From: Owenia fusiformis
Taxonomy: Eukaryota > Annelida > Polychaeta > Sabellida > Oweniidae
Direction: 5' to 3'
Assembly (NCBI GenBank): GCA_903813345.2
Contig: CAIIXF020000008.1
Location: forward strand, 39,062,867-39,126,866
DNA: 64,000 nt
The first letter of the stretch is position 1. The number at the start of each line of letters is the position of its first letter. A program made the position numbers and the translations under genes. The notes under the pieces were generated by a model that was not told where the DNA came from, made no database searches, and saw only the letters and a list, made by a program, of their open reading frames with translations. This document shows positions 16,255-64,000 of the stretch, one piece after another.

Positions 16255-16863
16255 GTTTAAAATAACTGGTTTGTGGTCTCAAGCACTCCAAAGGAATGTT
16301 TTTAGATGCATGTACTACTCCAAGAAATACATAACGAAATTCACCTAAATGATGAGAAGGTTCGTGCCACTTTAAGAAAAGACCAAGAAACTGAGCTTGG
16401 TTCCATAAAACCTCAGATAAAACCAAATTATCTATATGTATCTCAGACCTGCCAACATACCATTTATGGGGAACCTATTGTAAAAGTTTTGTTTTTTCCT
16501 TCTAATAACATTCAACTTTTATTTATGGGAACAATTAATCAAAATTAATTTCAAATTAATTTAAGTGTGACAAGACCCTTTAAAGTACAAGTTTATGTAT
16601 ACGTTTTCAAAACAACTTTTATCGAAACCTCTCTAGTGTGAGAACAGTTACCCGCCCAATTAATCTCTTTATGAATTATAAATCATGGTTAGTTAGTAGT
16701 ATTGCAATTGCAACATCAAGATCACCCTGTATTTAATCAGAGACATAATAATAGATAACACATATCATCTGTCTCTGATTTACTATGGTTATTACCATTT
16801 TCTTTGAAGAACAATGCAACAAGAAGCAATGGGTACGTGAAATCATGGAGAGAGTCTAGCATC

Positions 16864-17058
16864 ATGATCAGAGTTCTATTTATTGGACTGTTGTGTGTGG
16901 GTCTCGCCTATGGGAGAACTTCATGCTCCTGGGGTGTGGAGGTTGCCGAGTCATTCAACCTCTCATCGACAACCAGCAGGATCTTTAGTACAAAAGATAT
17001 TGTACCCGTCAACGAATATATTAAAAACCTTGAAGTTTACCCTCTTATAGCTCCAAAG
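16864..17058 (+). CDS. CATSPERG: CATSPERG-like exon 1
   Basis: 65 codons, donor CCAAAG|gtatgt, phase 0. ATG at 16864 is chosen because it starts the signal peptide directly; an in-frame ATG at 16804 would add 20 hydrophilic residues. Confidence 0.82.
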
Positions 17059-20000
17059 GTATGTACAGTATTGAGAAGTCATTGATAAATAACTAAGGAT
17101 ATTGAATTTTGAATGAAAGGGTCAGTAGCTGTAATTCTCATGATCCTGAACACTATTATATTTTTCATTCATAAATGAACAATAAGAAGACTGAAAATAT
17201 CAGATTGAAAAAATAGAGAGAAAATAGCCTGTCCAATTGGCCTGCTTTCAATGAAATCTAACTATCTTTATTGTATTTCCAGGATGAAGCTGTTTTCGCT
17301 TACCCCTATGTCCTAAAAATAAGATTATTGTGCCAAGATGCGGTAAGTTACATGCATACATATAAATGTATTGCATAATTTTTAATCATAACTAATCATT
17401 ACTATTAATTCAATGACTATTGCCCCCCTGTAGCCAGGATTTGCCAAGAGGGGGTTCACTTTTTGAAAAATTCCAGGGGGAGGTTCACATGTAACAATTT
17501 TTGTCCAAAAATGGCCAAAATCAATTAAAAAGTGCTCAGAATGGTGAAAATTGCATGATTTTGAAAGATTTTTTGGCAAGGGGGGGAGGTTCGCTCAAAC
17601 CCCCCTGGCTACGGGCCTGTTTGAGCAGTCAGTTCGCACATCCTAAATCCTGCTCTTGAGTCCCGCTGGACAATTTTATTTTCATTTTAGTTTAATTTTT
17701 AAGATTCAGCTGGAAAGTAACATTTTGCTTAAACTATCCACAATTCATTGGGCCCTGGTCTTAAATACTTTGAAGTTTTTGCAATTAAGATCAATTGTTC
17801 ATGAATCTTTTTTTGTTTAGGACCCATTTTTACAAACAAGGCGCTTGATTCTTTTTGGAATCACCCCTGAGGTCCATATGGAATATGAGCTTGAAGACAG
17901 CACCTACATTAGCAATACATTACATGGTCAGCTGTTAGATCTTATGAAATACCCAGGTGAGTGGGGGGAGGGCAGGGGGTAAATTGAAGACGACTCCTAC
18001 ATTAGCAATACACTACGTCACGGCAAGGGCGTTACAATACCCGGGAATTTATCGGTTCGTGCAGTACTTGTTTGTGATAGCGCCCTCTGTAGGTCACTGT
18101 GCTTAATAGCCTACAGTAATACAGGGTAGGATATCGGGAATTCGGTCAGTTTCTATCCGTCGATTACGCTATGAATTGAAGCAAGTGTGACCACTTTATT
18201 CACTTAAACAATTGATAATTGATTAAATCTTTAAACAAAATCGATAAACACGTTATACACTTCCTATCTCCTTAGAAATTAGCATGTATTTATGGATTGT
18301 GTTTTCGAACAAGGCTCGACCCAGACCAATAGGGAAATCCTTATGCTAATTAGTATGACGTCATATTTTCCTGGGGAATCCTAGATTTCAAAGCCTCACT
18401 GTTATTGTGACAGTGTCAAATGTAAACGCTCTTTTTGCAGACAGAAAATTGACAGATTAGCTTTTAACTTTCAGCTTTGATGTTTAAATATTCTGTATTT
18501 CTACAGGACTTCTTGCTGAATATCATATAATGTTATAACTTGATTTGGACCATGCCTGATTGATCATTCTGAAATTTTGATTGTCGTTCATCATTATTGA
18601 TTGGCAAGAAAAATAATTCCTATTGTTTTCCAGCGAAGTCAAAATGTTACACCATGAGTTATGATGTCGAGTTTGCATCATGTTAAATTCTGCTAGTGAT
18701 TAGAAGTCCATGCACAAGCATACACATATGTCTCTTATGATAAGAGACAAACACACCTAGGCTCCAGGCCGTGGATGGAAATATAAAACTATTTAAGGCA
18801 CAAACTGGTATTTAATAGACCGATATGTAGTGTCTGCCATGTATTGAAGGTAAAACAATGTGCATTATTAATGTTACTTCTATCAATACATGGATTGTGC
18901 AATGGAAAAGCAATGGCACAATCAAAAATGTGCATATCAATCGTGAATATCTCTCGGTTCAAAGCTTATTTCCAACAGATTCGTGTCAAAATATGTGTCT
19001 GAGTAACAGTTATACATTATAAGATCGCAAACTCTTACCAATTATCAGCCGAATGGCTCATTTTCAACGAAATGTCCTTAAGACAACAGCCCTGGGTCGC
19101 GCCTGAGACCAAAAACTATTTCAAATAGCCCTCCCCTAAATATATTGGATAATCACATTTATGCGTGCGCGCGCAGCTCATCCACTGAACGAAACGCCAC
19201 TTCCTGCTGAAATCACCGGGTATTGATCTTTCCCTTGGTCACGGTCAGCTGTTAGATCTTATGAAATACCCAGGTGAGTGGGGGGGGGGGGGTAGTTTGA
19301 AGACAGCTCCTACATTAGCAATACACTACATGGTCAGCTGTTAGATCTTATGAAATACCCAGGTGAGTGGGGGAGGGGGTAGCTTGAAGACAGCTCCTAC
19401 ATTAGCAATACACTACATGGTCAGCTGTTAGATCTTATGAAATACCCAGGTGAGTGGGGGAGGGGGTAACTTGAAGACAGCTCCTACATTAGCAATACAC
19501 TACATGGTCAGCTGTTAGATCTTATGAAATACCCAGGTGAGTGGGGGAGGGGGTAGCTAGAAGACAGCTCCTACATTAGTGTTATGTATCTGGTTTCGGT
19601 ACTGGTCATTAAGATATCTGATACCCTTAACTGAGTTTACCATGCCTATAGCAGACATTTGTAAGTCTGGCTTCCTACTAGAAACACACTAACTATGTAG
19701 TTCTTATATTATGTTTGATGTATAATAAAGTCTTGATACAAAACACAACATGGTGTCAGATGTGGGATTCAGAATTAGTAATGATCATATTTCAATGAGA
19801 TGACTGTTAAAGTTTAATTTGTTTTTAAACTAAAAGAAGGGAGATGTTATGTATCTGGTTTCAGTACTGGTCATTAAGATATCTGATACCCTTAACTGAG
19901 ATTACCATGCCTATAGCAGACACTTGTAAGTCTGGCTTCCTACTAGAAACATACTAACTATGTAGTTCTTATATTATGTTTGATGTATAATAAAGTCTTG

Positions 20001-23000
20001 ATACAAAACACAACAATTAGCAATACACTACATGGTCAGCTGTTAGATCTTATGAAATACCCAGGTGAGTGGGGGAGGGGGTAACTTGAAGACAGCTCCT
20101 ACATTAGCAATACACTACATGGTCAGCTGTTAGATCTTATGAAATACCCAGGTGAGTGGGGGAGGGCAGGGGGTAAATTGAAGACAGCTCCTACATTAGC
20201 AATACATTGCATGGTCAGCTGTTAGATCTTATGAAATACCCAGGTGAGTGGGGGAGGGCAGGGGGTAAATTGAAGACAGCTCCTACATTAGCAATACATT
20301 GCATGGTCAGCTGTTAGATCTTATGAAATACCCAGGTGAGTGGGGGAGGGCAGGGGGTAAATTGAAGACAGCTCCTACATTAGCAATACATTGCATGGTC
20401 AGCTGTTAGATCTTATGAAATACCCAGGTGAGTGGGGGAGGGCAGGGGGTAAATTGAAGACAGCTCCTACATTAGCAATACATTGCATGGTCAGCTGTTA
20501 GATCTTATGAAATACCCAGGTGAGTGGGGGAGGGCAGGGGGTAAATTGAAGACAGCTCCTACATTAGCAATACATTGCATGGTCAGCTGTTAGATCTTAT
20601 GAAATACCCAGGTGAGTGGGGGGAGGGGGTTGCTTAGCAGGGGGAGGTAGAGGGTGATAGTATGGATAGGGGAATGGCAGACAACAAAAAGATTGATAAC
20701 ATTTCAAATAATGCGATTCATAGGGCTAAAATATTTCAACACAATAATTAATTTGTTAGAAAGTTAGTTTTGGAATATACTGGATTATATATGGACTACA
20801 AGTTTAACTAACCTAATGAATAATTATGTATTTTACATTGTACCTGTACTCTCAGCCATCAATGTTTGGGCTTATAAAATCCCCAGTTTTCTAACACGGG
20901 GAATCTTAGCTTCATGTTACATGTATTTAGGTCTGTCTTATTTATATTGAGTACATTTATGTCATTTTATCTTGCAGAAAGTTTCTCGCTGACGCATTGT
21001 TTCCAGGCAGTATGTGAACCAATCTGGACTGCCCCCCTTCCTATACACATGAATACAAAGTGGATCCACATCACATTCACTCTACCAGGCTTTAAATATA
21101 TGATGCCAACTTATAGGTGAGTTTTGAGTACATGATGTCAACTTTTTTGTGAGTTTTGAGTACAAAGTTCAAACTAATAGGTGAGTTTTGAATACACAAT
21201 GCCAACTTATACTGTATATGGGTTTTGAGTACGTGTTTTGAGTACATGATGCCAAATTATATTTGACTTTTGAGTACACATTTCCAACTTATGGGTGAAT
21301 TTTGAGTACATGATGCCAACTTGTAGGTGTGTTTTGAGTTCATTGTTCCAACTTGTAGGTGTGTTTTGAGTATATGGTTCCAACTTATAGGTGTGTTTTG
21401 AGTATATGGTTCCATTTTATAGGTATGTTTTGAGTATATGGTTCCAACTTGTGTGTTTTGAGTATATGGTTCCAACTTATAGGTGTGTTTTGAGTACATT
21501 GTTCCAACTTATAGGTGTGTTTTGAGTATATGGTTCCATTTATAGGTATGTTTTGAGTATACGGTTCCAACTTGTGTGTTTTGAGTATATGGTTCCAACT
21601 TATAGGTGTGTTTTGAGTACATTGTTCCAACTTATAGGTGTGTTTTGAGTACATTGTTCCAACTTGTAGGTGTGTTTTGAGTACATTGTTCCAACTTGTA
21701 GGTGTGTTTTAAGTACATTGTTCCAACTTGTAGGTGTGTTTTGAGTACATTGTTCCAACTTATAGGTGTGTTTTGAGTACATTGTTCCATTTTATAGGTG
21801 CGTTTTGAGTACATTGTTCCAACTTGTAGGTGTGTTTTGAGTACATTGTTCCAACTTGTAGGTGTGTTTTGAGTACATTGTTCCAACTTGTAGGTGTGTT
21901 TTGAGTACATTGTTCCAACTTGTAGGTGTGTTTTGAGTACATTGTTCCAACTTGTAGGTGTGTTTTGAGTACATTGTTCCAACTTGTAGGTGTGTTTTGA
22001 GTATTTGATGCCTATTTATAGGTGGAACCGGAGCCAACTGTGACCTGATATGTGCATTTTGAGTTCATGATATCAATTTATAGGTGGGTCTTGAGTGCAT
22101 AATGCCAATTTTAGTACATAATTTTTGTTGAGTCATGAGTACATGATGCCAACTAATTGCTGATAAGTCTTAAGGGGATGTAGAATGTCTTCAATAACTT
22201 GTTTATTAAATATTTTAACTGTATAAAATGTTACACATACATGTACAGTGTAAACACATTGTTGGGAAATAACAAAAACTAAATTGAAAGATAATTTTTT
22301 CAGTAAAATGATATCAGTCAATGGCTATGGTACTGAATTATCCCCCAAACCATTCAGTCTGCTTGGAGACAGTTACAGCATCTCCAGTTTAGATGTGAGT
22401 GTCCCTCTGTCAGTCCATCAGACTCCTAATCTGGCCCAGGCCTCAATTGCTAGTGGATTCACCCAATCCAACATAGGACTCTTCAGTGAGGATCACTTCA
22501 AGACTTTTAACACATTTCAGGTAAGTAACATGGTCAAGGTAAGATATTGATACATGTATGTCTCAAATGATGTATTTTACACCCACTTGAAAATCATTGT
22601 TTCTGCACTTCCATGCAAACTGTACTCTGAAGATTTACATCAATTACTTAAATCCCTTTACTTGTAATGATAACAAACACAAACATCATGATATTGCTCA
22701 ACCTTAGTGCATTAATCCAGGGCCTATAGCCAGATTTTGCCAAGGGGGAGGGGGTCAGTTGTTAAATAATTTCATCCCAGCTACCAGCTTGCTCTGTATC
22801 TTGTTTGGAGTAAATAAAGGAAGGTCTAGCAAATCAAAATGATAAACATCAATCTTTCATATTGAAAAAAAGAATTGTCATTAACTTTTTCATTCACATT
22901 CATTAATTTAAATATCATTCTTGTTTTTAGTTTGATATATTGGAGCACCTAGCGACATCTATAGTCTGTCCCAGCAGTCTCAACATAACAGGAAATGACA

Positions 23001-26000
23001 TCATTGATATGGTTGTTTTAAATGATCGCACAATTTTTGCAACTGTGGTAAGTTCTTATACATGTACTAAGTAAAATTACTAAAAAAAGGGTCAACGATA
23101 CATAATTGGCCATTTAGTTGCATAGAAATCACATACCCTCTGTTAAGAAAAAAAGGTGCATGGTCCTTTATTAGTCATATCATTTTCAAAATTTTGTAAA
23201 ATATTATTAAACGCTTTGAGGCACATGACACAAATATTGTTAATAACTGGTAGAAATTTTAAAAAATTAGATGAAAATTTAAAAAAGTTAGCAATGGTTA
23301 AAACCATTGTCTCACAACCTAACTAATGTGACTTTTTCCTTTTTATGTCATAAATTACACTGTGCTATTATACAGTGCAATATATTTTCTTCTAAGCCTA
23401 GGATATCATCTTCTATATGTTATATTCTTCATACCATTGTAAAGTTCATTCCAAACTGGTCATAACTGACAGGTTTGAAATAAACATTGACACACTGACA
23501 GAAAATTATGGAGGTGCCAAAATCTGTCTAAAACATGATTATTTGGACAATTTTACGCCTTAAATAGCAGTGAAATTAAGGATAAGATGTGACCATTTTG
23601 CTGAATAAATAAATTCATGTCTCAGAAGATCCTCTTCTTAAGCACATTGCTGGGTATAGGATTTCTCAAATTTATAATGTCAATTTATGGTAAAAAGTCA
23701 CACTCACGATTTTTGGAGTTGTTATATTCAATTCTTTCCAACTTTTCACCATATTTACAAAATCCTTTGAAATTTTTTCAATTTGGTCAAAGTCTAAATA
23801 CATCATGCCTCTGAAAGTTTGGTATGATAATAATGAAAAATAGAAAAGATATGATTGGTAAAGGACAATGCCCCTTTTTTCTTTACAGAGATTTTTATTT
23901 CAAGTTTGGTTCGGTAGAAGTACTCGGCGCATACTATAGTGTATTGGTTTTGCATATTTTTTATTTTATTTCCAGTATGTTTTAGAAGTCCTAAGCGCAT
24001 ACTGTAGTGTATTTGATTTTATGCTTTATTTTCAGTATGGTTTAGTAGAAGACCTAGGCACATACTATAGTGTATTGGATTCATACTTAAGTTCCAGTAT
24101 GGTTTAGTAGAAGTCCTAGGCACATACTATAGTGTATCCAATTAATACTTTATTTCCAGTATGGTTTAGTAGAAGTCCTAGGCACATACTATAGTGTATC
24201 AGATTAATACTTTATTTCCAGTATGGTTTAGTAGAAGTCCTAGGCACATACTATAGTGTATCAGATTAATACTTTATTTCCAGTATGGTCTAGTAGAAGT
24301 CCTAGGCACATACTATAGTGTATGGGATTAATACTTTAGTATGGTTTAGTAGAAGTCCTAGGTACATAGCATATCAGATTGATACTTTATTTCCAGTATG
24401 GTTTAGTAGAAGTCCTAGGCACATACTATAGTGTATGGGATTAATACTTTATTTCCAGTATGGTTTAGTAGAAGTCCTAGGCACATACTATAGTGTATTA
24501 GATTAATACTTTATTTCCAGTATGGTTTAGTATAAGTTTTAGGCACATACTATAGTGTATCAGATTAATACTTTATTTCCAGTATGGTTTAGTAGAAGTC
24601 TTAGGCACATACTATAGTGTATCAGATTCATACTTTATTTCCAGTATGGTTTAGTAGAAGTCTTAGGCACATACTATAGTGTATCAGATTAATACTTTAT
24701 TTCCAGTATGGTTTAGTAGAAGTACTAGGCACATACTATAGTGTATGGGATTAATACTTTATTTCCAGTATGGTCTAGTTGAAGTCCTAGGCACATACTT
24801 ATATAGTGTATGGGATTAATACTTTATTTCCAGTATGGTCTAGTAGAAGTCCTAGGTACATACTATAGCATATCAGATTCATACTTTATTTCCAGTATGG
24901 TTTAGTTGAAGTCCTAGGCACATACTTAGTGTATGGGATTAATACTTTATTTCCAGTATGGTCTAGTAGAAGTCCTAGGTACATACTATAGTGTATGGGA
25001 TTAATACTTAATTTCCAGCATGGTTCAGTAGAAGTCCTAGGCACATACTATAGTGTATGGGATTAATACTTTATTTCCAGTATGGTTTAGTAGAAGTCCT
25101 AGGCACATACTATTGTGTATCAGATTAATACTTTATTTCCAGTATGGTCTAGTTGAAGTCCTAGGCACATACTATAGTGTATGGGATTAATACTTTATTT
25201 CCAGTATGGTTTAGTAGAATTCCTAGGAACATACTATAGTGTATTCGATTACTACTGTACGCCCGGTATAATTTCGTGAATTTCACAAGGTTGAAATTCA
25301 TTACTATTCCAGGAATTCTTGAGCTACTCGTGATGTCATATTTGGATGAGATTTACTATAACTGGGATCTTTATCATCGGCAAGCTGCATATCAACCTCT
25401 ATTGCATCGTCATTTTTAATATTAAAGCAAAAGTGCGTGGCTCCCATAATAACTTTACCGTAATTCATACTGTATTTTATCGTATTCGGGGATTCCCCAG
25501 TATATGATGTCCAATCAAATTGCAGGCTACGATCACGTGAACAATCATGCGCACGTGCTCTTTCATTGCCGCACATGCGCATAGTAAAGTCATGGAGTTG
25601 CACAGTACTATTGAAGTACTATAACTCGATCCAAACTAGTAGAGAAAACTCACAAAGCAACAGCGAACATTGGGATACAGTACTAGTATCCATTTCAATG
25701 GCAAATGAGGTCAGTTTATAAAATTGGTTATCGAACGTGCCAATAGCAAAACGAAATGCATCAGAGCCCCGGGTAAAAACAAATTCCCGGGGATTAAATT
25801 GGCAATTTCGCGACGATAATTTTTTCGCGATTATAACACCCTCCCGAAAAGCGCGAAAGTAAATCGCACGCGAATAATACCGGGCATACAGTACTTTATT
25901 TCCAGTATGGTTTAGTAAAATTCCTAGGCACATACTATAGTGTATCAGATTAATACTTTATTTCCAGTATGGTTTAGTAGAAGTCTTAGGCACATACTAT

Positions 26001-29000
26001 AGTGTATCAGATTCATACTTTATTTCCAGTATGGTTTAGTAGAAGTCTTAGGCACATACTTTAGTGTATCAGATTAATACTTTATTTCCAGTATGGTTTA
26101 GTAGAAGTCCTAGGCACATACTATAGTGTATGGGATTAATACTTCATTTCCAGTATGGTCTAGTAGAAGTCCTAGGTACATCTATAGCATATCAGATTCA
26201 TACTTTATTTCCAGTATGGTTTAGTTGAAGTCCTAGGCACATACTTATAGTGTATGGGATTAATACTTTATTTCCAGTATGGTCTAGTAGAAGTCCTAGG
26301 TACATACTATAGTGTATCCGATTAATACTTTATTTCCAGTATGGTTTAGTAGAAGTCCTAGGCACATACTATAGTGTATCAGATTAATACTTTATTTCCA
26401 GTATGGTTTAGTAGAAGTCTTAGGCACATACTTATAGTGTATGGGATTAATACTTTATTTCCAGTATGGTCTAGTAGAAGTCCTAGGTACATACTATAGC
26501 ATATCAGATTCATACTTTATTTCCAGTATGGTCTAGTAGAAGTCCTAGGTACATACTATAGTGTATCCGATTAATACTTTATTTCCAGTATGGTTTAGTA
26601 GAAGTCCTAGGCACATACTATAGTGTATCAGATTAATACTTTATTTCCAGTATGGTTTAGTAGAAGTCCTAGGCACATACTATAGTGTATCAGATTAATA
26701 CTTTATTTCCAGTATGGTTTAGTAGAAGTCCTAGGCACATACTATAGTGTATCAGATTAATACTTTATTTCCAGTATGGTTTAGTAGAAGTCCTAGGCAC
26801 ATACTTATAGTGTATCTGATTAATACTTTATTTCCAGTATGGTTTAGTAGAAGTCTTAGGCACATACTATAGTATATCCGATTAATACTTTATTTCCAGT
26901 ATGGTTTACTAGAAGTCCTAGGCACATACTATAGTGCATCTGATTAATATTTTATTTCCAGTATGGTTTAGTAGAAGTCCTAGGCGCATACTATAGTGTA
27001 TCAGATTAATACTTTATTTCCAGTATGGTTTAGTAGAAGTCCTAGGCACATACTATAGTGTATCAGATTAATACTTTATTTCCAGTATGGTTTAGTAGAA
27101 GTCTTAGGCACATACTTATAGTGTATGGGATTAATACTTTATTTCCAGTATGGTCTAGTAGAAGTCCTAGGTACATACTATAGCATATCAGATTCATACT
27201 TTATTTCCAGTATGGTCTAGTAGAAGTCCTAGGTACATACTATAGTGTATCCGATTAATACTTTATTTCCAGTATGGTTTAGTAGAAGTCCTAGGCACAT
27301 ACTATAGTGTATCAGATTAATACTTTATTTCCAGTATGGTTTAGTAGAAGTACTAGGCACATACTATAGTGTATCAGATTAATACTTTATTTCCAGTATG
27401 GTTTAGTAGAAGTCCTAGGCACATACTTATAGTGTATCTGATTAATACTTTATTTCCAGTATGGTTTAGTAGAAGTCCCAGGCACATACTATAGTGCATC
27501 TGATTAATATTTTATTTCCAGTATGGTTTAGTAGAAGTCCTAGGCACATACTATAGTGTATCAGATTAATATTTTATTTCCAGTATGGTTTAGTAGAAGT
27601 CCTAGGCACATACTATAGTGTATCCACACAGCCAACAGTGATCTTACAGCACTGTGTTGACAGAGTTAAATCTCAAGACTTTGATTTGCATACCAAGTCC
27701 TATCTGATTGCTATTGGTCATGGAGAGAATAACACAGAGATTCACATGGGCAATCTGAATCTGGCTGAACCAGGTAAAAATCTTGATTAGAATTTTTATT
27801 TCTTCAATTTGTTTTAAACATACATGTACATAATCTTTCACACTTCCCTCCAAAAGTCCTCAATGCAACCCAAGTCTTCCATTGCTATTTCAATGTTTAC
27901 GTTATAAAAAAGTTCCTCATATTTGTTTTCATGCTCACAAATTTACAAAATGTGTACTGTAGCTTATAAATTATAAAGTTGTTTTTATTTGATAGTAGGG
28001 ATCAGGTGTTGTCACCATTTTCAGTTTGGTTTTTGAATCCCTCAGTTTGGTTTTTCGTTTTGTTATTTAGTTCTTATTGCACCATTATATTCTGCTACCT
28101 GTATGATCATAAGAATGTAAAACAAAATTAACCTAACCATGTATTTATTATCTCATGTTTCAGGCTATGTCTCTGTTTTTCAAATGTAATACTAGACACT
28201 TTACTGTTGAAATGATATTGGTGTTAGCTGAATCTAATACTTGAACATGAATATCTTTCTCATCCATTGGTGTTTTTCTCAATGTCCTCAGCAGTCATTT
28301 TTTCTTGATCTGCGTTATTTTAGGTGCACATGTATTTATGAACTGTACTTTTCCTCAATTAATGTGAAATCCGAGAATTGAGCCTACAGTTGTGGCCAAT
28401 GATGGTTGGAGCTCTGCAGTATGCAGTTTAGATTAACTGTCTGACGCCTAGTTGGAACTACAAGAAAAGTAGCTACAACGCCGTTTTGGCATCGAACAAA
28501 TTTGGCACTGTTCCAGCACCATTTCGACACCGTTCTGGCACTGAAACCTTTCGACACCAAAATTTGCTACCGGACTAGTCAGTCCATTTGGTGCCGAATT
28601 AGGCACCAAAGTTTGGCACAGAAACGGCGTCGAAAATCAGATTGCATTTTTAGGGTGATCAGACCATATATTTGACTACATACACATTTGCTGATTTGGA
28701 TGTGCCAATTACAAGGTCCCCCTGGTTGTTCAGAGTAACTGCACTAGGGTATTTAATTCCATCACTTTCACTCATTATGATTTTCTTGAAATTGGCCTCA
28801 GGGGAGAGGAGCTGGATGTTGTGCTTTCCATAGTCAGCTATGATGATGTAACCAGCACTATCAACGCAAACACTCATAGGATACTTCAAATTGTAGTCTC
28901 CCTCACCTCTATAGAAGGCTAGCAGATCCCCCTTTCTGTTGATGATTTTCACAGACGCATCTTCAAAGTCAGCGATTAAAATGGAGTTGTGGTTGATGGA

Positions 29001-32000
29001 GGCAATGCTGACCATGGCTTTGAACATCCCACTTGGAGTTGTGTTTGTAACATTACGTGTAATGATGTTGAAGTGAGAAATCGTTTTGTCTGTGTGATTA
29101 GCTATGATTAGCTCTTGGTGCTCGTTGAATGCTATAGCCATTGGGTTTTCTATAGTGGGTATTAGTATGTCTCTTATGGGTTCACCTCTGATGTCAAACA
29201 ACCTCACTCTACCAGTATCATTGTCATAACCTGTCCACACTGCCACCATGTCAGCATAAGTTGCTACACATAACGCTTTATCTGCAACTAGAGTCTTCAA
29301 AACATTACACTGATTGTCACACAGCAAGGTTTTATAACTTTTTTTGTATACATTTAATTCTGCATCTGCTCCACACATAACATAGAGTCCATTTGATAGG
29401 ACTATTATAGATCTTGTGAAATTGAGAACATTCTCTTCGATGGACTTACTCTCTTTGATTTGAGCAACATCCAGCAACATCCTGTCAGATGAGGTGAATG
29501 GTTCTCTCTGTGTTCCATCTGTTCTTTCAGGAACCTGATCTATATGCAGCTTGTTTGTTTGTTCATCTCCATTAAAAGCACCATCTTTGTCATCTGCTTT
29601 GGCTGCTTTTTTCTCAACATTATACTTGACTATCAGTTTTTGTGCCAAGGCTTCAATGTTCTTTAACATAGTTTGCATGTTGCTAAGTTCGTTAGGTTCC
29701 AGTGCTTCTACATCAACTGGGGCAATGTCAAATGCAAGTTCTAAATTGATGCTAGCTTGGACAAGAGTTTCCTCACGGAGTCGCATTTCAATCATTGTTG
29801 CCAAAAAATCATAATGTTCCTTCAATGCTTCAATAAATGAATTAAATGCTTTTATAGAACGTGTTTCTAGTTTTCGTAAAAAGATTCTACATCTCTCTGA
29901 GGCTGTTTTCTCTGCCATAACTTCTTCGATCATAGAGCTTGTTAGAATCTCATCTCGGTGGCAAACATCGACTAAATCCCTGATTTCCAGGTTTGGGACT
30001 ATATCATAGTGACATCTTTGTAAAGTCCTTTTATGCACATCAGTAAGGGGACTGTCTTTGCTGTGCTTTGCTGCCATTCTGAAGTTATGTAAAAACAATA
30101 CATTTGCATTATTTAAGAATCAAAGGTTTTTTATTTCTTTTTACTCTTAACACTATAGCATCTTAGATTAAGACATGTTTTTTTTTATTCTTTATATAAA
30201 TAGATAAAATCATTTTATACCATACAGACATTAAGACCATCACACATGTTTTAGGTGTATAGAAATTAATAGGTGTCAAGGAATAATTATTATGTATTCC
30301 ACTTCCTTACCAATCCTAGCATTTCCCCCTCCCTCCCATGAATTCAAATCATAAAAGTACCTACCTTAATTTCCGTGTGGTAAATATATATGATATATTA
30401 TTTATTCATGTATTTTTACAGTTAGTAACATTACACATAAAAATTAAGCCGTGTACTTTTAGTGTATGTGTAGATGTGCACGTTTGAAGTGTTTATTTGT
30501 ACAACATTTTATCAGGTTTAAGTACACATTTAACACTCATCTTCAAAAGTTTGGCAACCCCTCCACAACTATTAGACTACATGTTCAAGTTTATTCAGGA
30601 TTTTTAAAATTTCATCTTTCCAATACGTTTCTCACAATATTGTTAGCTTTTGCAATCACTCACTCACTTGTACTTCCTGGGAAGACTTTGTTCACACTAA
30701 ACAAACAGGCTTACAATATGTTATCCAATGAGGAGGCAGCTTATATTGACAGACTTTTAGAGGGAAGTATACCTTTATCTTAAGTTAACAATTCTTATGG
30801 TAAACACTCCTGCCAACTGGGTCACACTGACTTTTCATATCAGTTGAGAGCTTTAAAGAACCCATATAAGAGTATAGTTTAAACCACTATTGGTTTTAAA
30901 CACCAGATTTAATCGAAAAAGTCTTACCCAGTAATATCAAAATGTGAAATGCACAACTATTTTAAAAATTTGGTTTTAAGAAGTTCAGGTCTTGAAAAGT
31001 TATATATTTAGATGGGGTCTTTAAAAGTCCCACATGAAGAGAAATGAACCCATCTATGCATGAAAATGGTTCAGTGAATGGTCTTTAGAAATAATGCATT
31101 TTGTACTTTATAATGGAATATTTAATAATTACAAAAATGGTGTGTAATTTGAAAATTTGAGAAATGAAAAGCTGATAACTTTTCTTTCAAAACATTAAAT
31201 CAAAAATCTCTAAAATAATAAGTCATGAAAAATAGTAAATGAAAAATTAAAACATATTTTCAAAGTTTGCATGAGGCTTTTAAAGCACAAGACTAATTTC
31301 TGCATTCAAATTGCTATGTCTTGTTAAAATGAGCCTACATGTATAAAGATGTATTCTCATAACAATCTTTCTCATATGACTGGCACAGATTCCAGCATCT
31401 TTCCCCCTAAATATGCTTCAATGTACATATGACATGTATGTATACATTTTTAAGTGTGTGAATTTTAGAAAGTCCAATTCATCAAAACATACACCCTCAC
31501 CCAAATTTCCTCAATTTAGAATGTATTATGTTCAATAACCTCCCAATGTATTTCAGTGTTATTGATTTTTACAGTATTCCATTTCAGGTTCACAGTTAGC
31601 GTTCACAACAATGAGTTTGAACTGTAGTTTAATGTGTGGAGCTATCAATGAGTCTGTAACCAACTGCACAGTCATAGATGGCGCTATAAGTGGTATTGAA
31701 GGCGATACTACAATTCTTTTGGTCGATTGTTACTTCGCAGAACATGCCCCACATTTTGCTCTGGTGAAATATTCAGGTAAGTTACTGCTATACTTAAGCT
31801 TAATGTTTAATAAATGTTACAGTAAAACCTGTGTATATTGAACATCTTTTTTCCAAAAAATGAGAAAAAGGGTTGTTAGGTGTTCACTATAGAGGGGGTA
31901 TTCATCCAGAATTCAGTTGATGGTTTGTCTGGAGGAATGGTGTCTACTAGAGACAGGTTTTCACTTGAGAGAGATTAAGATTTTGAACACCTGAGAAGCT

Positions 32001-50000: not shown

Positions 50001-53000
50001 AGCAATTTTGTTCATATTTGATATGTGAATACTTTAAGCATGGCACATTGTCTAAAAAAACTTTGGGGAGTAGTCGGCCATTTTGAAAAATGGCCACCAT
50101 TTTTATGTGTGTTATTTTACATTTTTTATAATTATTCCAAAAGTAATAGAGCGATTTTGTTCATATTTGATATGTGAATACTTGTAAGGATTGCATACTG
50201 TCTTACGACATTTTAGGTAGTAGGCGGCCATTTTAAAAAATGGCCAGCATTTACATGTATGTGTGTGCGATTTTTAAAAAATTTTACATGTGGCTACTTA
50301 AAAGCATATTACTTCTTCTGATGACAACTTGGCAAGTGAGCAACCATTTTGAAAATGGTGGCCTTTCTTATGGGTGTTATTTTATGATATTTGTAATATA
50401 TCCTTAATTTTTTCATTCATATTCTAGGATGTGTTTACTATGCAAGTTATATTGGGTTGTCCCCCAGGTAGGAGACTTGTGTTTGACATGCAAGCAACAT
50501 TGGATCGCCTGAAGACCACAACAGACAGAAACTATGACTGTTCTACACCTGACCTTGAGTTACCGTGTCTCTACTATAGTTCCAGTAAGTATTCTGAATG
50601 AAACTAAACATACGTAAGGATTTATTGCACATCAGTCACAAGATATCCAAGCTATACTAATAACTTTTTTAAGTGTGCGCCAAAGTTTAAAACTGCGCAG
50701 GCGCAGCGCTCTCGCTAACCTATATAAAGAGATTACAGGGTACAGGCTTCAGAGTAGCCTGGTTTATATAATATTGAAGGGCATGCTAATTGTACACACG
50801 GGTACATGCATGAAGCCAGGGAGGTGAACAATCTTCGTCCCGTGTTGATTTCCCGTAACCAGGCAAGTTTCACCATTGAAATTGAAAATTACTATTAGAT
50901 ATACTTTGTAGATATTGTTTATGAAGCTATTAAGTGTATGCATCAGTCAAATGGCTCATTTTGAACATATAAAAGGTATTTGTGTTTTGTTTCCCAGGGA
51001 ACTGTATTCCCATGTAGTACACACATAAATAGTATACATTATGTTAGTACTTGAATAGCCTGGTTTATATAATATTGAAGGGCATGCTAATTGTACACAC
51101 GGGTACATGCATGAAGGCCTAATATTGATATAGCTTGCATACCTAAATAAAAAATAAACTCTTCTAATCCCCTTATGTAAACACGGCGGTATACGTAGCC
51201 CGATTTATCGGGGACTTTAAGGAGGTCAGCGGGTCAGAATTGAGAAAGCATAATCATGACCAGCTGTATATCTTAAGTCCAGGACTCATTTCCAATTTTA
51301 CTTAAATATATTTCAAAGTCTGGACTGATCTAATAATTCAGCCTTTGGCCGCCCTGTCACTTGGGTGAAAGAGAGATTCACTGGAGAGTACACTTTATAT
51401 AATTATTATAGAGAATAGCTATATAGCTTTGTGTGAATATGTGTTACAGCATTCTGGCCTTTCTTCACTCTGGTGGATGCTGTCACTTGGGTGAAAGATA
51501 GATTCACTGGAGAGTACACTTTATATAATTGTTATAGAGAATAGCTATATAGCTTTGTGTGAATATGTGTTACAGCATTCTGGCCTTTCTTCACTCTGGT
51601 GGATGCTGTCACTTGGGTGAAAGAGAGATTCACTGGAGAGTACACTTTATATAATTGTTATAGAGAATAGCTATATAGCTTTGTGTGAATATGTGTTACA
51701 GCATTCTGGCCTTTCTTCACTCTGGTGGACGCTGTCACTGGAGTGAGAGATTCACTGGAGAGTACACTTTATATAATTATTATAGAGAATAGCTATTTAG
51801 CTTTGTGTGAATATGTGTTACAGCATTCTGGCCTTTCTTCACTCTGGTGGACGCTGTCACTGGTGTGAAAGAAAGATTCACTGGAGAGTACACCTTGAAG
51901 GTTATAGGTGGCAGTCATGAGTCAAAAGATAAAATTGTCCAATTTTCCAAATTCCAGATACTGACCTACAATAACGCAAAATCGTAAGTTGATGCCTTGA
52001 TTTATTGATTAGTACTGCAGATTTAAAGTATCATCATTTCAGAATTTTAAATTGTTTGGATCATTTGATAACTTGATGTAACCTGGTCAATTTCATATAT
52101 TTTTATTATTTCCTATTTTTATGTTGATCAATCCCCATTTATCTAACAGTTTCATTTGAACAGGTCCCTACTTCACACCAGTTTGTCAAGTATTTAATTC
52201 CAATGTTTTCAATTTTTTGTATACTTTCTACGTTAGCTTCTTTTGTTTAAACCAGTTTTTAGCTTTTCATGCTTTGCTAGTTTTCTTACAACGATTGTTC
52301 CTTTATAATGTCATACACACTCACATATGAGTTGGGGTGTTGCCCAGTAAGTCAGGTAGCTAGAGTTGCTTCAGAGTTTCTGAGATGATCATGCAGGCCC
52401 GTAGCCAGGGGGGGTTCGGGGGGTTCCGGCGAACTCCCCCCTGGCCAAAATTTTTTGTATGATTTTTGGCCAAATTTGCCAAAGTGAACCCCCCCCCCTA
52501 GAATTTTTGGGAAAAGTGAACCCCCCCTTGGAAAATTCTGGCTACGGGCCTGTCATGTGTAGCTGATTGTAAAGAAAAGTGTAATGAATATATAAGCACA
52601 AATGCTAAAGGGAAGGGTGACTAAAAACTTTAAAGAAACCTAACAAGAAAAGCAAACTGTAAGTGTAAATCTGTCATAAGAAAAGTAGACCCTATATATC
52701 CCAAAACCATGATCTAACGTGAAAAGAAACAATGTCTAACATCCCCCTACCCCCTCCAATCGAGAACCAATATCACAATCCAGGACCAGAACACAAAGGG
52801 ACATTTCATTCATACTGAAGTCATTACAATACATGTTGAAGAAAAATTGAAAAAACTGATAGCCAATACTCATAACATCAAAAATTCAAAGGGTCAACAT
52901 CCGTTCGCAAAGCCATCATCATAATCCATAAAACACAACAATTCAAAATGGTCATCAGGAGAAAACTACGGCTGGTTTCGATCCCTATTTCTCAACCATT

Positions 53001-56000
53001 AATGCCATAGCTGGGATCCACCTCAAAAGGTGCCAAGTGAAAAAATTGTGATTTCATTGCCAATTTAATTATACCATTCCTACATCCTTCATGAAATAGA
53101 CTTTTGAATTTTACATTATTTCTTGTTTACTTCTTGCCTTCCACTCGCCCCTTACATTGACATGTTCTGTAAAGCACAATTAAGGTTGTGGCAAATATAG
53201 CTACACTTTATCAAATGAAACTGGATGAAGTGAGATTATTTTTGGAAAATATAGTACAATGCAAGAGTGATTGTGTGACTAATGTGACTGAAGTAAAATT
53301 GATTGTGGCAAATGAGAATAAGCAATTGTAACAAATGGTGGTCTTAATAAAATGCAATATGTTACACAGGCCAGAACCTACTCTGATTATGGAAGCAACA
53401 AACGAAGGAAAGTACACAAAGTCTGGTTGGGCAGTGTATGATTCTACCTCTAATGCTATAAGGTATGGACTTTTAACTTTTTTTCAATCATTCAATCATA
53501 TATATGCCATTTATTATTTCCGAATGAGTGGTGACTTATTCTTAAAGTCTCCCAATTTTTTGTAATATATCCTGTTCTAATAATGAACAAAATTTCACAA
53601 ATTAATTTTAAAGATATTATGTTTTAGGATCTAGAATCAGAATGAGTCTAGGGGAAGGGCCAAATCACACTTTGGCAGAATGTTGACCTTTGTGTTTTAA
53701 ATATTTATATGTATATGGTCATATTTACAGTTGGATGTGTGTATCTAGCGCCCCATGTACCAATGTACCTGTAAAATTCCTGTTACCCTTTGTGTTTCTC
53801 TATATACATATGGTTATATTTACAGTTGGATGTGTGTATCTGGCTCCCCATGTACCAATGTGCCTGTAAAATTCCTGTAACCCTTTGTGTTTCTCTATAT
53901 ACATATGGTTATATTTACAGTTGGATGTGTGTATCTGGCTCCCCATGTACCAATGTGCCTGTAAAATTCATGTTACCCTTTGTGTTTCTCTATATACATA
54001 TGGTTATATTTACAGTTGGATGTGTGTATCTGGCTCCCCATGTACCAATGTACCTGTAAAATTCCTGTTACCCTTTGTGTTTCTCTATATACATATGGTT
54101 ATATTTACAGTTGGATGTGTGTATCTGGCTCCCCATGTACCAATGTGCCTGTAAAATTCCTGTTACCCTTTGTGTTTCTCTATATACATATGGTTATATT
54201 TACAGTTGGATGTGTGTATCTGGCTCCCCATGTACCAATGTGCCTGTAAAATTCCTGTTACCCTTTGTGTTTCTCTATATACATATGGTTATATTTACAG
54301 TTGGATGTGTGTATCTGGCTCCCCATGTACCAATGTACCTGTAAAATTCCCAAACTCTCCAGAGTATTATTTCTTAATGGAAGTATCAAATGTGTAAGTT
54401 GACTATCTATTTTGATCTCATCAATATTTCTATCCTCTAAAATTTAGTCTCAGTCTTATTTTTCTGAAATTAGACACATAACTTTTTAAAGAATGATTCA
54501 ACATTTAAAATTTATTTCCTAAACTTCAATTTACAATAATATAAATGTTGAATTACAATTGATTTTGTCACAGTCATGGATATGTCAAGACTAGATTGAT
54601 ATTTATTGATTTAGTATGTAAAGTAAAACCTAAATCAAGTGGAACACCTCCTTTATAATTCATGTTAAAGAAGAACACCTTTACCTCTATATTATTGACT
54701 TAATGTTAATTGAACAAAAGGGACACACCTTAAGTAGAACATCTGGAACCAAGTCAATGGCAGGCCCATAGCCAGGGGGGGTTCGCAGTTCTTTCAAAAT
54801 CATGCAGTTTTTCACCATTTTGAGCACTTTTCAAATGATTTTAGACATACAGGGTGATCATTAAGTTCTGGGAATTGGTTTGCCATTTCAAGATTTCTCA
54901 ACCATTTGAGTTGAAATTTTCAGCAGGTGTTCATTGTATAATTCTGAATTGACAAGCAATGTTTCATATACATATCACATCTACAATTTATTTTATTGTA
55001 ATTACAAAAAAAGTAAAAGTGGTTTGCGGGTCAGCAAATTTTGACTGATGTTAATTTGAAAATTTCCTGCCAAAACATATTCATCTTGCTTAGATAGTTG
55101 CTTCAAACTACCTGTACTAGAGGCAGAACAGTACTCTTGAAGTCATTTATTCAGAAGTATTCTTCATTGCTGAGAGGATCATTTCATTTATGATTGTTTC
55201 CATTAGCCTTGGACGCACATGCGTTGTTGACAAACTTCATAAAGATGTGTTCCAGTCCTCCCTTTGGTATCCCTTGAAGATTTGCTCAAGCCGTTGAAAT
55301 CAGTCCCTTATTGGAATCAAACTTATGACCTCTCATATAATGCTTTAGCACCCAAAATGTATTGAAGCCTAATGGTGCTTCATCTAGTGAATATTGTCTG
55401 GTGAATATGGGGCAGTAATAACTTGTGTGAACCCTAATTCTTCAAGAGTAGTATGGGCAGCTTTAGTAATCGGAAGAAGGATAGTCTTAATGAAAGATAA
55501 CTCCCCACTATTTTTAGTCATGATTGTTACTTTGAGATGCTGATGAATGATACAAAAATAGAGCAAAGTACACTCTTATATAACAATAAAGATGTTACTT
55601 TAGAAACATAAGTTAGAAGTATTTGAAAATATAAAAAATCACAGAAATATGTCCACCAAATAGATATTTATTAACCATACTTTTGGATCAGGCAAAATTT
55701 GAATTCATTTTTTATTTTACTTGACCCGCTACGGCATTTATCTTGTTGCTATAGTAACAATAATTATCCATTGTGACATCAGATGATAATGAGACTGTTT
55801 TATCCAACCCAAAATTACATTCCCCATTTACCTTGAAAATTTCAAGTAAATTGGTTAAAAAATAATGAAATGACAGATAAATTCCCAGAACTTAGTGATC
55901 ACCCTGTATTTGGGCCAAAATTGCCAAATGTGAACCCCTTCTGGAAATTTTTGAAAACTGAACCCCCCCCCCCCTTGGCAAATCCTGGCTACGGACCTGA

Positions 56001-59000
56001 AGGGTGTTACCCAGTGAGAACCCAGCAAAATCTAGTACAGTAAGATCTATGTTAATGGTACTAATGTACCTTGGTACATTTAAAGTGTTCTACTGCATGA
56101 GGGGGTGTTCCATTTACAGAGGTGTTAACTTTGTAGATGTTTCGGTACCTTGGGATATGAAGATATAATTTGATAATAATCCTCATTATTGGTCAATATT
56201 ATAGTCTCTGCCAATATACTCTGCAGTTTATATTTTGATTATTGTTTTAATAGAGACACAGGAAACACCGACTCTTAACTGCCAATATACTCTGCAGTTT
56301 ATATATAAAGCACCGACTCTAACTGCCAATATACTCTGCAGTTTATATATAAAGCACCGACTCTAACTGCCAATATACTCTGCAGTTTATATATAAAGCA
56401 GCGACTCTAACTGCCAATATACTCTGCAGTTTATATATAAAGCAGCGACTCTAACTGCCAATATACTCTGCAGTTTATATATAAAGCAGCGACTCTAACT
56501 GCCAATATACTCTGCAGTTTATATATAAAGCAGCGACTCTAACTGCCAATATACTCTGCAGTTTATATATAAAGCACCGACTCTAACTGCCAATATACTC
56601 TGCAGTTTATATATAAAGCAGCGACTCTAACTGCCAATATACTCTGCAGTTTATATATAAAGCACCGACTCTAACTGCCAATATACTCTGCAGTTTATAT
56701 ATAAAGCACCGACTCTAACTGCCAATATACTCTGCAGTTTATATATAAAGCAGCGACTCTAACTGCCAATATACTCTGCAGTTTTTATATTGATTGTTGT
56801 TTTAACAGGGACACAGGAAGCACCGACTCTAACTGCCAATATACTCTGCAGTTTATATATAAAGCACCGACTCTAACTGCCAATATACTCTGCAGTTTAT
56901 ATATAAAGCAGCGACTCTAACTGCCAATATACTCTGCAGTTTATATATAAAGCAGCGACTCTAACTGCCAATATACTCTGCAGTTTATATATAAAGCAGC
57001 GACTCTAACTGCCAATATACTCTGCAGTTTATATATAAAGCAGCGACTCTAACTGCCAATATACTCTGCAGTTTATATATAAAGCAGCGACTCTAACTGC
57101 CAATATACTCTGCAGTTTATATATAAAGCAGCGACTCTAACTGCCAATATACTCTGCAGTTTATATATAAAGCAGCGACTCTAACTGCCAATATACTCTG
57201 CAGTTTATATATAAAGCAGCGACTCTAACTGCCAATATACTCTGCAGTTTATATATAAAGCACCGACTCTAACTGCCAATATACTCTGCAGTTTATATAT
57301 AAAGCAGCGACTCTAACTGCCAATATACTCTGCAGTTTATATATAAAGCAGCGACTCTAACTGCCAATATACTCTGCAGTTTATATATAAAGCACCGACT
57401 CTAACTGCCAATATACTCTGCAGTTTATATATAAAGCAGCGACTCTAACTGCCAATATACTCTGCAGTTTTTATATTGATTGTTGTTTTAACAGGGACAC
57501 AGGAAGCACCGACTCTAACTGCCAATATACTCTGCAATTTATCGTAAAAGTGCATGGTCTTCCAATAGATGGCATTCAGATGTCACTAGTTATTGTTGTC
57601 GTAAGTCAATTTCTCCCAACTTTAAATTATTTAATTTGCTCCGTCTCGAAATTACCCTTTTAATTATCCCATCAAACAAAGCTTTGGGGGATATAGGGAA
57701 CGCCTCCATGCTGGCATCCATCCACCTGTCTGTAATTATTGTAAAGTACAATATTTTGGTCAAAAAAGCAAATGCTAAAAGGCAGATTTCCTTCTTATTG
57801 TCCAACAAAGTTTGGGGGATATAGGAAACACCTTCTGTCTGTCTGTCCGTCCGTCCGTCTGTCCGTCCGTCCGTCCATCTGTCCATCCATCTACAAAACA
57901 AACTAAAACATACAAAAGTTAGGACATGTATAAATGTTACTAGTTTTACATATTCTGTTTCAATATGGTCCTTTAATTGCTTATTTTTTAGATTCAAAGT
58001 AGTTCCAAACATTTAAAATTTTTCCGGAGTATCATTTCTGTCATTATTAGAGCTCAAAAATCTAACAAAATCTCGGAGGGGGGGGGGGTCACCCCCGACA
58101 TCCTCCCCCTTCCGACGCCAATGATAAAATTCCCTCAATACTAACATTGGGCTTTCAATAGATCTCTTGAAAGCCCATGATACTAACCAAGGCAATCGAT
58201 GCATTAAGATAAATTACATTCACTTCTTAATGTTGAATTTGACATATTTGCTTATACAGGGTGTCAAATGGCGTTGTGACCCCCCTCCACTGCATAAACT
58301 AGGAAAGATACACACACATACCATATACCATTGGAAAGAGCATTTAATTGTTGTTAACATGTGAAAAGATGTAGATGCATGATGGAAAATAAGATATATT
58401 TTTAACTTACTTTTAAAAGTGAGTATGACCCCCTTGGGCAGCCTTAACCGCTACCAATCTAGCCGGATATGAAGCTAAAAGGGAATGGAAAAGGGCTGTG
58501 TCTTTCTCAAGAGATTTTAATACTTTTCGGAGGTTCTTGAGCAGGGCATCTTTGGAATATCTGTTCTCTGCAGCTTCAGTGTCCATAAGTTGCTCTGTTT
58601 TATCCATTAATATGGACCCCATGTGCTCTGCAGCATTCAGGTCAGGGCTGTTGCTCGGGTATTCATCAATACCAAAAAAGTCTATGCCAGATTCTCAAAA
58701 ATCAATGAAATAGAGCACTACACTAGTACATTTCAAATGCATGTGACACTATGTAGCAATATCTGACCTAGGTCATCTAGGGTTTATTTTATCCAGAATT
58801 GAATGCTCTTTCCAATGACATACATAATGTGTAGGTACCTTTCTAAGTTTATGCCGTGGAAGGGGGGCACAACGCCATTTGACACCCTGTATATGACTTA
58901 AACAGATGGCTAATACTGATAATACAGGTAATAAAGTCATATCTATTTTTTATATTTACAAGTAAAGGAAGGAGAAAAATATTGATTTTTTCGAATTAAA

Positions 59001-62000
59001 TGGTATAAAGTAAATTCACCTATTACTCCCACCATATTTTTTATTATCACAACGAACGAAGTTCGGTAGGGATATAGTGAAGCCCTCCGTCCGTCCGTCC
59101 GTCCATCTGTCCGTCAGTCAGTCAGTCCGTCCGTCTGTCCGGAAGATAACTCAAATACTAGTAGATGGATTTTCTTCATATTTAGTGGAAAGATGTATAT
59201 TGATGAATAGTTTTACGCAAAAAAATTTTTTTCAAGATGGCTGCCGCTTTAAAAATGACGGGACTTTTTCGCAAAAATCATAAATTTTTCATTCTAAACC
59301 AAAGTAATATATATTATTGTTTGAAAATTCAAAATGGCTGCTTTGCAGGAATTCGCAATTCTAAAATCTAATTTTTCAATTTTAACCAAAGTAATGAGTA
59401 TAATTGATTGGAATTCGGTAATCGATATTTTGTTCGTTGGGATTTGCTACTCCGCGGAGTTGCCGTTATCTAGTTATTTATTTTTATAATTAAAATATTT
59501 AAATGTGGTAATAAAGGACACAATACAATACATTTTAGAAGTAATATAATTTTATAATCATTACAGACATATTTGTTTCATAACTATTGTTTTTTCATCT
59601 GTTCTGTCTGTCTGTTCATCTATTCATTCTGAATATTTAAACCTTATTTACCCACAATTTTGTTTTTAGGATAGGTTCTGAGAAAAGCATATTGTCTGTA
59701 TTATTTGCATTATTATTTCATTTCAATATTACTTTTGCAGCTACTCACACAATGTTTTGAAGAATAATTCCATAAATGCAGTATAAAGTTTCTCATTATA
59801 ATGGATACCATCTCTATACCACTCCGTTTTATTTTTACTCAAGTCATATATTCCGTAAAATGGATGAAAAAGCCTTGGATTTGACTCATAGTATTTATAT
59901 ATCACTTGTAAAGCCCATTGCTTATATTGCTCATATTCATGTTTAATCTTCCATTTGTTTGAAACATATGTTGGTTCTATCCAGTACACTCTCGTATTAT
60001 TGTGAACTACTTGCTGTAATAGCTCAAGGAACCATGTTAGGTCCCGTTTAAGATCGGAGCAACCTCGCCTTTCTGGTTCGTGGTGATTCCCAATGATTAC
60101 AATAAGGGTTGGGTAGTGTGGCTCGGTGTAGAGATATTCATTGAAGATGAATTGTTGCGTTGTCATTGATTCACGCAGTAACTGCCATATTTGGAAGAAC
60201 TAAATGGGTATTTCTTTGCATTTTTACACTGTTTTGACCTTCTCTGGGTTATCATTTCATTGTCCATGTAATACTCCATTGCTAAGTATTCAATGTCAAG
60301 CTTATGTGTAAACGCCTGTACAGTTGCATTATGGGATACCCCACTCGTATTATGGGAAACTTCAGTTGCATCATGGGAATTAACTGGTTGCTTGGTGACA
60401 CATTGGTATAGAAATGAAGTACATGTTAAACAATCCCTTTTATGGAATTTTGCATCTTTCACCTCTTTAAAATATTCTTCTGTTGGATCACTAGTCCCAT
60501 CAATTTCCTTTTTCACTACTTTACATTTGTATTCCCTTTGGAGTAACTTCAATGCCGCATATCCCCATCGTCGCCCATTAGAGTCTCCTAATATCAACAT
60601 TTTTCTAATTTTTAAATCTGGAAGACATTTTGGAAGATATGAATTGCCAAATGAGAACTCACAATTGCTTGGTATCCACGTGTTATTTATCCATGATCCT
60701 TCAGTGTACAACAAATTGTTTTTCAATAAAACTTTCCGCAGAAATTCCGAATTGCATTTTTCCACTAAATAATTTGAATATATTTGTTTAGGCCTAGTAG
60801 TAAAATTGTTCAAATGTATATTTAAATATTTCAAAGAGCTTCCAAAGTTAAAATATGTGTACATGTATGTTAAAACAGCTAAAACTGTAAAACAAGCTCG
60901 TATAGTAATTTTCTGATTCATAATGTAGTTGCTCAAGCTACAGAGTACAGTGATTCCCTGAGAAATATTTAACTATAGTAATAACAATAAGACAGATATA
61001 TAAATATATATTGCATTGTAGCTATTACTCATCCCAGTCAGTGATTAATACTTCATGTACATGAATTTAAAAAGGAACTTCTTGGATTATATAATCAATA
61101 TTGTATCAAAAGGAGACTGGCCTTTGACAAATTTCAAGTTTTCATACCTCACGTGACCTACTGCATAGAAGTGTAAATTCTGTATTCACGATTAGTGTAT
61201 TGATATAATTTCAAAAAATATTAGGTCAAAAAAGAGATCTTCAAATCAATAACTGCACATAGACATAAAACTAGAGCATTTTCACAGTATGAAAGCACTA
61301 TAGGATTTTTATCGGACATTTCTCCATGTGTTATCATGTGCAATGGCTCTAATCATACTTCTCTCTTGTTTAAACTAGGGCCGTGCCATTCGACCGGAAT
61401 CGGTCCGAACCGCGGACTTTTGTTAAAATACCGGAATTCGGAATTTTAATATCATGTTCCGAAGGGTTTCGGAACAATATCGGACCCTTACCTTAGTACT
61501 TGCTTTGAATCGTTAATATCCGTGACCATTGTTCCTCCAGTGATGTTTTCCTTCAAACTACATCCAATTTGCATGTGTATTACTCGCATAAACAAAATAA
61601 ATAGCGGAGAAATCAACAGAAATCGTTATGATTTCGTTTCAAAACTTTTTCAATTACGCATGCGCATTATGGTCAGAGCAGCCGGAAGTGAAAACAAGTA
61701 GAAAAAAGATCGAATTTTCTCTCTTTTTACAGATTTTAGAGTCTATTTCTTTCGTAAAAACATTCAAACTTGCTTGACAGGAAAGGTAAGTGTTAACCTG
61801 ACAAACTTGGACGACGATATCGTCATGATCGCCGTCGAACTCACTCATACATAATTATTTTCATTTGTGAACCAAAAGGGGTTCCGAAAGTTCCGATTCC
61901 GTGAGACCAAGTTCCGGTTCCGATTCCGAACCGTCCGAACCGGTTCCGGCACAGCCCTAGTTTAAACTCTCCGATGCTTCTTCAAGGGAAAAGCCATGAT

Positions 62001-64000: not shown

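Follow-up and report, generated by a model that had tools for sequence, protein, structure and literature searches.

Tandem copies at thirteen exon borders of a CATSPERG gene in the annelid Owenia fusiformis

We analysed a stretch of 64,000 nucleotides from one assembly of the annelid Owenia fusiformis, referred to here as the window. Its central feature is a CATSPERG gene on the plus strand, of which exons 1-22, in the numbering of the preliminary description of this DNA, span 16864-57600. In the model, 22 exons bounded by GT/AG sites join into an open frame of 1060 codons, and the 1060-residue product shows no difference from residues 46-1105 of P0121, a deposited protein of 1593 residues. 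The product carries four Pfam domains above cut-off (CATSPERG NTD, beta-propeller, Ig-like and C-terminal), and CatSper gamma 2 chains are its solved relatives (9ubw_F, E 7e-57 over 56-1060; 7eeb_F, E 8e-57). Further coding exons lie on either side, one upstream near 15262-15330 and others after 62600. Three genes are nested in the introns on the minus strand, at 28662-30119, 33674-35476 and 59744-60972. Among them, Pfam matches point to a UDP-glucuronosyltransferase and to a CARD/NHL-like protein whose gene looks intronless; the UDP-glucuronosyltransferase, in intron 10, matches a protein of Owenia fusiformis with 100% identity across 95% of the query. The gene at 59744-60972 is presumably NXPE-like, and its tested part (60166-60972) gave no Pfam match. 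An 18-21 bp tandem repeat at 20-123 lies within the open reading stretch that opens the window.

The preliminary description had claimed that at least thirteen exon-intron borders of this gene are multiplied. We looked for repeats independently of any annotation by aligning the whole window to itself with BLAST and keeping direct copies that lie within 1500 bp of each other. This self-BLAST search gave 18 clusters, 16 of them between exon 1 and exon 22; the two outside are a CGGA microsatellite (10361-10480) and two distant copies of an element (57804-59140). Within exons 1-22, 13 clusters touch an exon border, three are confined to introns and none is confined to an exon. The border clusters comprise five donors (exons 3, 4, 9, 10 and 17) and eight acceptors (exons 7, 11, 12, 13, 14, 19, 21 and 22). 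All thirteen borders that had been named thus carry local direct copies in a search that is free of the gene model, and the two lists of donors and acceptors are the same; the range, which had been drawn as 16864-64000, contains such repeats up to about 57542, where they stop. The copies form multi-copy arrays at ten of the thirteen borders, and these ten were also found by Tandem Repeats Finder (TRF) and seen by eye. At exons 10, 11 and 17 there are two copies only, partial ones at exons 10 and 17. Unit lengths range from 32 to 150 bp across the borders. Together the border clusters cover 20,319 of 40,737 bp, 19,138 bp of this beyond one unit each; three inserts make up ~2.3 kb of the clusters, and the remaining 18.0 kb amounts to 44%. 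Very short periods tend to escape self-BLAST, and three further short rows, all intron-only, come from TRF between exon 1 and exon 22 (23253-23291, 39805-39838 and 48590-48625).

On the donor side, where all features lie on the plus strand, the exon 3 array (17888-20635; TRF and self-BLAST) consists of ~12 copies of an 87-92 bp unit with 67 exonic and 25 intronic nucleotides. It is split by inserts at ~18021-19239, with limits set by eye, and at ~19580-20015. In the second insert, two direct repeats of 171 bp (TG...CA) lie ~95 bp apart and are flanked by ATTAG on both outer sides; the insert resembles a short, TRIM-like LTR element that would have entered after the array had formed. At exon 4 (21091-22114; TRF and self-BLAST), ~30 diverged copies of a 32-bp unit are present, and 17 of the 25 listed copies have GTGTGT where the exon's own donor reads GTGAGT. 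The exon 9 array (32270-32996; TRF and self-BLAST) holds ~10 copies of a 73-bp unit, 47 bp exonic and 26 bp intronic. The donor of exon 10 (33384-33505) carries a partial duplication in two copies, 40 bp at a spacing of 82, that includes 8 exonic nucleotides (self-BLAST E 7e-9). At exon 17 (49380-49506), a 92-bp exonic segment is partly duplicated, with 35 bp matched between 49380-49414 and 49472-49506 at a spacing of 92 (self-BLAST E 4e-6). The first of these stretches is coding sequence in gap-free alignment to the CatSper gamma 2 chain 9ubw_F. The second copy starts two bases before the end of the exon, and the present donor AG/GTAAGC is therefore a copy of exonic AGGCAAGC. In the simplest reading, an exonic segment was duplicated and the second copy gave rise to the donor, so that intron 17 would now open with former exon sequence.

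On the acceptor side, again on the plus strand, the exon 7 array (23894-27625; TRF and self-BLAST) comprises ~50 copies of a 62-bp unit, 41 bp exonic and 21 bp intronic, and is interrupted at ~25257-25887 by ~630 bp of mostly unrelated sequence. Exon 11 has two copies at a spacing of 150 with more than 100 exonic nucleotides (37073-37370; self-BLAST). The repeats of exon 12 (37443-38310; TRF, self-BLAST and inspection by eye) fall into two generations, four copies of a 117-bp unit at 37446-37931 and older, diverged copies of ~93 bp; it is the latter that adjoin the exon, while the 117-bp array lies further out. Exon 13 is preceded by ~9 copies of a 79-bp unit (61 exonic, 18 intronic; 38826-39534), and exon 14 by the longest array, 7.4 kb with ~49 copies of a 149-bp unit (86 exonic, 63 intronic; 40118-47532), in which 44 of the 49 copies read ATAG where the last, exon-joined copy has ACAG. 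Shorter arrays stand at exon 19 (~4 copies of 126 bp, 70 exonic and 56 intronic; 51354-51896) and exon 21 (seven copies of 95 bp, 50 exonic and 45 intronic; 53680-54350); these four arrays were found by both TRF and self-BLAST. At exon 22 (56208-57542; TRF, self-BLAST and eye), 44-bp units of exonic type are embedded in higher-order units of ~690 bp.

The anatomy of the unit could be determined for nine arrays (exons 3, 4, 7, 9, 12, 13, 14, 19 and 21), and the exonic share is smaller or diverged in the units at exon 4 (32 bp) and exon 12 (117 bp). The units had been described as combining coding sequence, a splice site and some intron. This needs amending at exon 17, whose unit is essentially all exonic with the second copy starting at the donor, and at exon 22, where the 44-bp unit lacks the acceptor and the ~690-bp higher-order unit holds it. 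The proposal that the arrays arose as independent events is supported, as each border has units of local sequence with their own length and junctions.

Ordinary intronic minisatellites are tandem units of 30-150 bp that grow by slippage or unequal exchange. The CATSPERG gene differs from this pattern in that 13 of its 16 clusters sit on exon borders. The three counter-examples, all on the plus strand, are a tandem array in intron 10 with a unit of ~122 bp (36321-37020; TRF and self-BLAST), a local repeat within a stretch that resembles a dispersed element in intron 17 (49834-50262; self-BLAST) and a 64-bp direct repeat at a spacing of 301 in intron 18 (50752-51116; self-BLAST). In addition, inspection by eye showed a dispersed element, its ends resembling CCCGTAGCCAGG and CCTGGCTACGGG, to recur in introns at ~17430, 22710, 37980, 52390, 54760 and 55940.

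We compared the position of the clusters with a null in which each cluster was cut to one unit, leaving a gene of 21,385 bp with 42 borders, and the unit lengths were placed at random; placements that were entirely exonic or crossed more than one border were dropped. Against 3.14 border clusters expected, 13 of 16 were observed (P 1.1e-7, for a gene selected for the pattern). The excess persisted when exons 10 and 17 were left out (11 of 14, P 2.3e-6), when four extra intron-only rows were added (13 of 20, P 9e-6) and when the nested genes were masked (3.75 expected, P 1.0e-6). It shrank when intron space was restricted to 500 bp or less from an exon (4.6 expected, P 1.2e-5) or to 300 bp or less (5.5 expected, P 1.0e-4). 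These P values are optimistic, because the gene was picked for its pattern, and the 1e-4 of the harshest null would not survive correction for 26,966 genes. Furthermore, if the duplications preceded the entry of dispersed elements into the introns, less intron space was truly available and the enrichment would be lower. Hits are clear-cut: a sensitive alignment of exons against introns gave 12 of 42 borders that beat all 200 shuffles, and it showed no old, decayed border duplication among the other 30 by the same 200 shuffles, the acceptor of exon 18 reaching P 0.03; exon 10 falls among these 30 since its copied segment includes just 8 exonic bases. In no case are both borders of one exon affected, for which the chance probability is 0.08.

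One explanation of this pattern is that neutral duplications occur everywhere, that purifying selection removes those in exon interiors, and that the gene is simply a chance extreme among ~27,000. The absence of any exon-only array agrees with it, and the P of 1e-4 that the harshest null gives is nothing unusual for whichever gene of a genome is the most extreme. However, intron-only arrays are the neutral class on this account and should form the majority, outnumbering border arrays by about 4 to 1, whereas three were found against 13. Also against it, self-BLAST of 1-16800 yields the CGGA microsatellite alone, though TRF finds a few short repeats in this part, the longest a 16-bp unit in five copies at 1967-2046. 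Thus, purifying selection, which the preliminary description had offered as a cause, explains why there are no exon-only arrays but fails on the rarity of intron-only ones; selection alone is insufficient, and either a biased origin or some advantage of the border position is needed in addition. We regard a chance extreme as unlikely, though worth keeping in mind.

The reading we favour, with a probability of about 0.58, is that these are minisatellites of the type called mirages: tandem duplications biased towards borders, of which ten expanded, filtered by selection and with copies that are mostly inert. In this scheme, a short segment including exon sequence would have been duplicated in tandem at each of the 13 borders, at several junctions apparently between short homologies of 4-10 bp. 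Ten of the duplications would then have expanded in the germline by slippage or unequal exchange, the functional exon staying at the end of the array. Breakpoints would favour exons or their borders, and purifying selection would remove duplications that are wholly exonic. The homologies were read by eye and without a chance control, and were seen at five of the six junctions where both flanks seem to survive: GCTT at exon 3, ATGATG at exon 4, CACAT with two extra bases at exon 9, ATGC at exon 11 and CACAAATACA at exon 14, where the match may be what is left of a truncated copy. No short homology was seen by eye at the junction of exon 21. A gradient of growth away from the exon, or of an interior homogenised apart from its edge copies as in mirages, was weak at best: similarity to the exon copy dropped with distance in six of seven arrays, reached P <0.05 at exon 7 alone and was reversed at exon 3.

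Several causes of such a border bias were considered. Composition does not set the affected borders apart, neither GC nor GC skew nor exon length distinguishing the 13 borders with copies from the remaining 29 (P 0.13, 0.33 and 0.89). The strand skews of the arrays are opposite in sign, positive at 20-22 kb and negative at 40-48 kb, which argues against a simple R-loop model. In array-masked 4-kb bins, the observed-to-expected ratio of CpG was 0.07-0.51 at 16-56 kb, 0.56-0.78 upstream and 0.62-0.63 at 56-64 kb, and outside the arrays within 16-56 kb exons (0.29) and introns (0.31) were similar. The low CpG content in the middle of the gene suggests long-standing methylation in the germline. 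If so, the gene has probably been transcribed in the germline, which would fit instability linked to transcription without proving it. Exon methylation itself is not favoured as the cause, because 5mC in Owenia fusiformis is reported to be higher in introns than in coding exons (PMC11292947); the 3' part of the gene (56-64 kb), which is not poor in CpG, also counts against methylation.

We then compared the copies for signs of function. At 11 borders, the exon-joined copies differed from the array consensus at 17 sites, of which 13 were synonymous and four changed an amino acid (neutral synonymous share 0.218, P 2.5e-6); exons 4 and 7 contributed no differences and exon 12 had no alignable copies. 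This P value is soft: exon 11, with its single extra copy, accounts for five of the 17 sites, and at exon 19 two sites lie in one codon beside a possible small indel. The exon-joined copies are thus shown to be under coding constraint, and the deposited protein corresponds to them. The other copies behaved differently: singleton changes in eight arrays were synonymous in 16 cases and not in 61, as expected for neutral change (expected share 0.225, P 0.79), and variants shared among copies leaned slightly towards synonymous (26 of 78, P 0.03). Codon positions 1, 2 and 3 carried 43, 23 and 72 changes (P 4.5e-7), a bias that would have pointed to coding constraint on intronic copies; it was rejected, since it vanished when distinct variants were counted (55, 49 and 51; P 0.86), shared variants having been counted repeatedly. 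The exonic and intronic parts of the units diverged alike (337 of 8703 versus 264 of 6380 cells; 0.039 versus 0.041 pooled).

These comparisons bear on the possibility that extra copies are selectively kept because they buffer or regulate the splicing of a testis gene, as had been suggested. In its support, windows of 12-14 nt at the exon's own splice site recur 1-48 times at 12 of the 13 borders, and nearly every copy retains its splice dinucleotides, with 12 changes in 353 cells against 20.9 expected (P 0.026, a soft value because divergence sums count copies of one mutation several times). This deficit is the sole hint of constraint on the copies. The splice windows as a whole are not clearly conserved (122 changes versus 134 expected, P 0.15), and at exon 14 they are more variable than the rest (0.024 versus 0.010-0.011). 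Moreover, singletons show no coding constraint, and at 11 of the 12 borders with a close copy a premature stop would truncate the product if the adjacent copy were used in splicing, the frame staying open at exon 11 alone. At exons 4 and 14, the commonest copy is judged to have a weaker splice site than the exon's. We therefore consider a selected splicing function improbable; the data support the extra copies being mostly inert intron filler, although the splice dinucleotides hint weakly at the opposite. In seven other arrays most copies match the authentic splice site, and site strength alone cannot select the right copy there. Under the favoured reading, the exon-joined copy would probably be chosen through exon definition, in which pairing with the nearby splice site of the same exon gives the shortest exon. 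Such nearest-site pairing across the exon, an established principle, would pick the authentic copy in donor and acceptor arrays alike.

It is very improbable that the arrays are an assembly artefact, collapsed or inflated by the assembler. The copy numbers of near-identical arrays, above all that of the 7.4-kb one, do come from the assembly alone, and an aberrantly assembled mirage was reported in the paper on amphioxus globins (PMC3087553). The Owenia assembly, however, is reported to rest on PacBio reads with an N50 of about 26-31 kb from the sperm of one male, several times longer than the longest array, together with Bionano maps and Hi-C, and its gene models were guided by RNA-seq (PMC9977687). 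In addition, the copies differ from one another, one array carries a retroelement-like insert with a target duplication, and the frame of the gene is intact. Delivery of the sequence to the exon borders by introner-like or other mobile elements is scarcely credible, for although dispersed elements occur in several introns and inserts in two arrays, each unit copies the edge of the exon next to it, and the consensus units differ in sequence.

The closest known counterpart to the CATSPERG arrays is found in amphioxus, where the tandem units of mirages are reported to span an existing exon border, each border with its own unit of 10-160 bp, on the donor or acceptor side and with splice signals in many copies, splicing being undisturbed (PMC3087553, PMC3902484). 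The CATSPERG copies likewise span borders with a border-specific unit on the donor or acceptor side, in part at exon 17 and through the higher-order unit at exon 22. They differ in that Owenia is an annelid, and in that 13 borders of one gene are affected, with up to ~50 copies and close to half of the span. In potato, a single duplication across a border is reported to have created a new intron (PMC4974935). The CATSPERG gene shares with this route of intron gain, the AGGT model, a duplication across or near the intron-exon boundary, and exon 17 resembles its exonic AGGN version, with the donor at the start of the second copy (PMC4974935). Unlike intron gain by duplication, the CATSPERG introns were lengthened by multi-copy arrays and no new intron is evident; the arrays lie within single introns of this gene model and the exons are continuous in frame. 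The gene is also unlike those shaped by introners, as its units are local copies of different exons and not related sequence at many sites. In the earthworm metallothionein gene, minisatellites in intron 1 and duplications of exon 4 are reported, and the passages concerned describe no border unit (PMC12783039). A literature search on border repeats, made up mostly of titles and the openings of abstracts, returned amphioxus and potato, nothing for Owenia and no case with so many borders in one gene. As far as this search goes, the kind of repeat is already known, if rarely described, and the phylum and the density are new.

It is possible, and we suggest it tentatively, that an active duplication process is common to animal genomes as distant as those of lancelets and annelids. 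Such a process would be anchored on exons or on splice junctions in genes transcribed in the germline; it would seed a separate minisatellite per border, lengthen introns and multiply splice sites while purifying selection only trims the outcome. The locus offers a clean natural test of two questions: by what rule a spliceosome chooses a single site among as many as 50 that are nearly identical, and whether DNA is marked for duplication by its transcription or splicing. Should border arrays reach a similar density in other parts of the Owenia genome, the birth of minisatellites would not be blind to gene structure, and introns could lengthen by the copying of exon edges. The spare splice sites would then be raw material for the gain or shift of introns, and exon 17 looks like such a shift.
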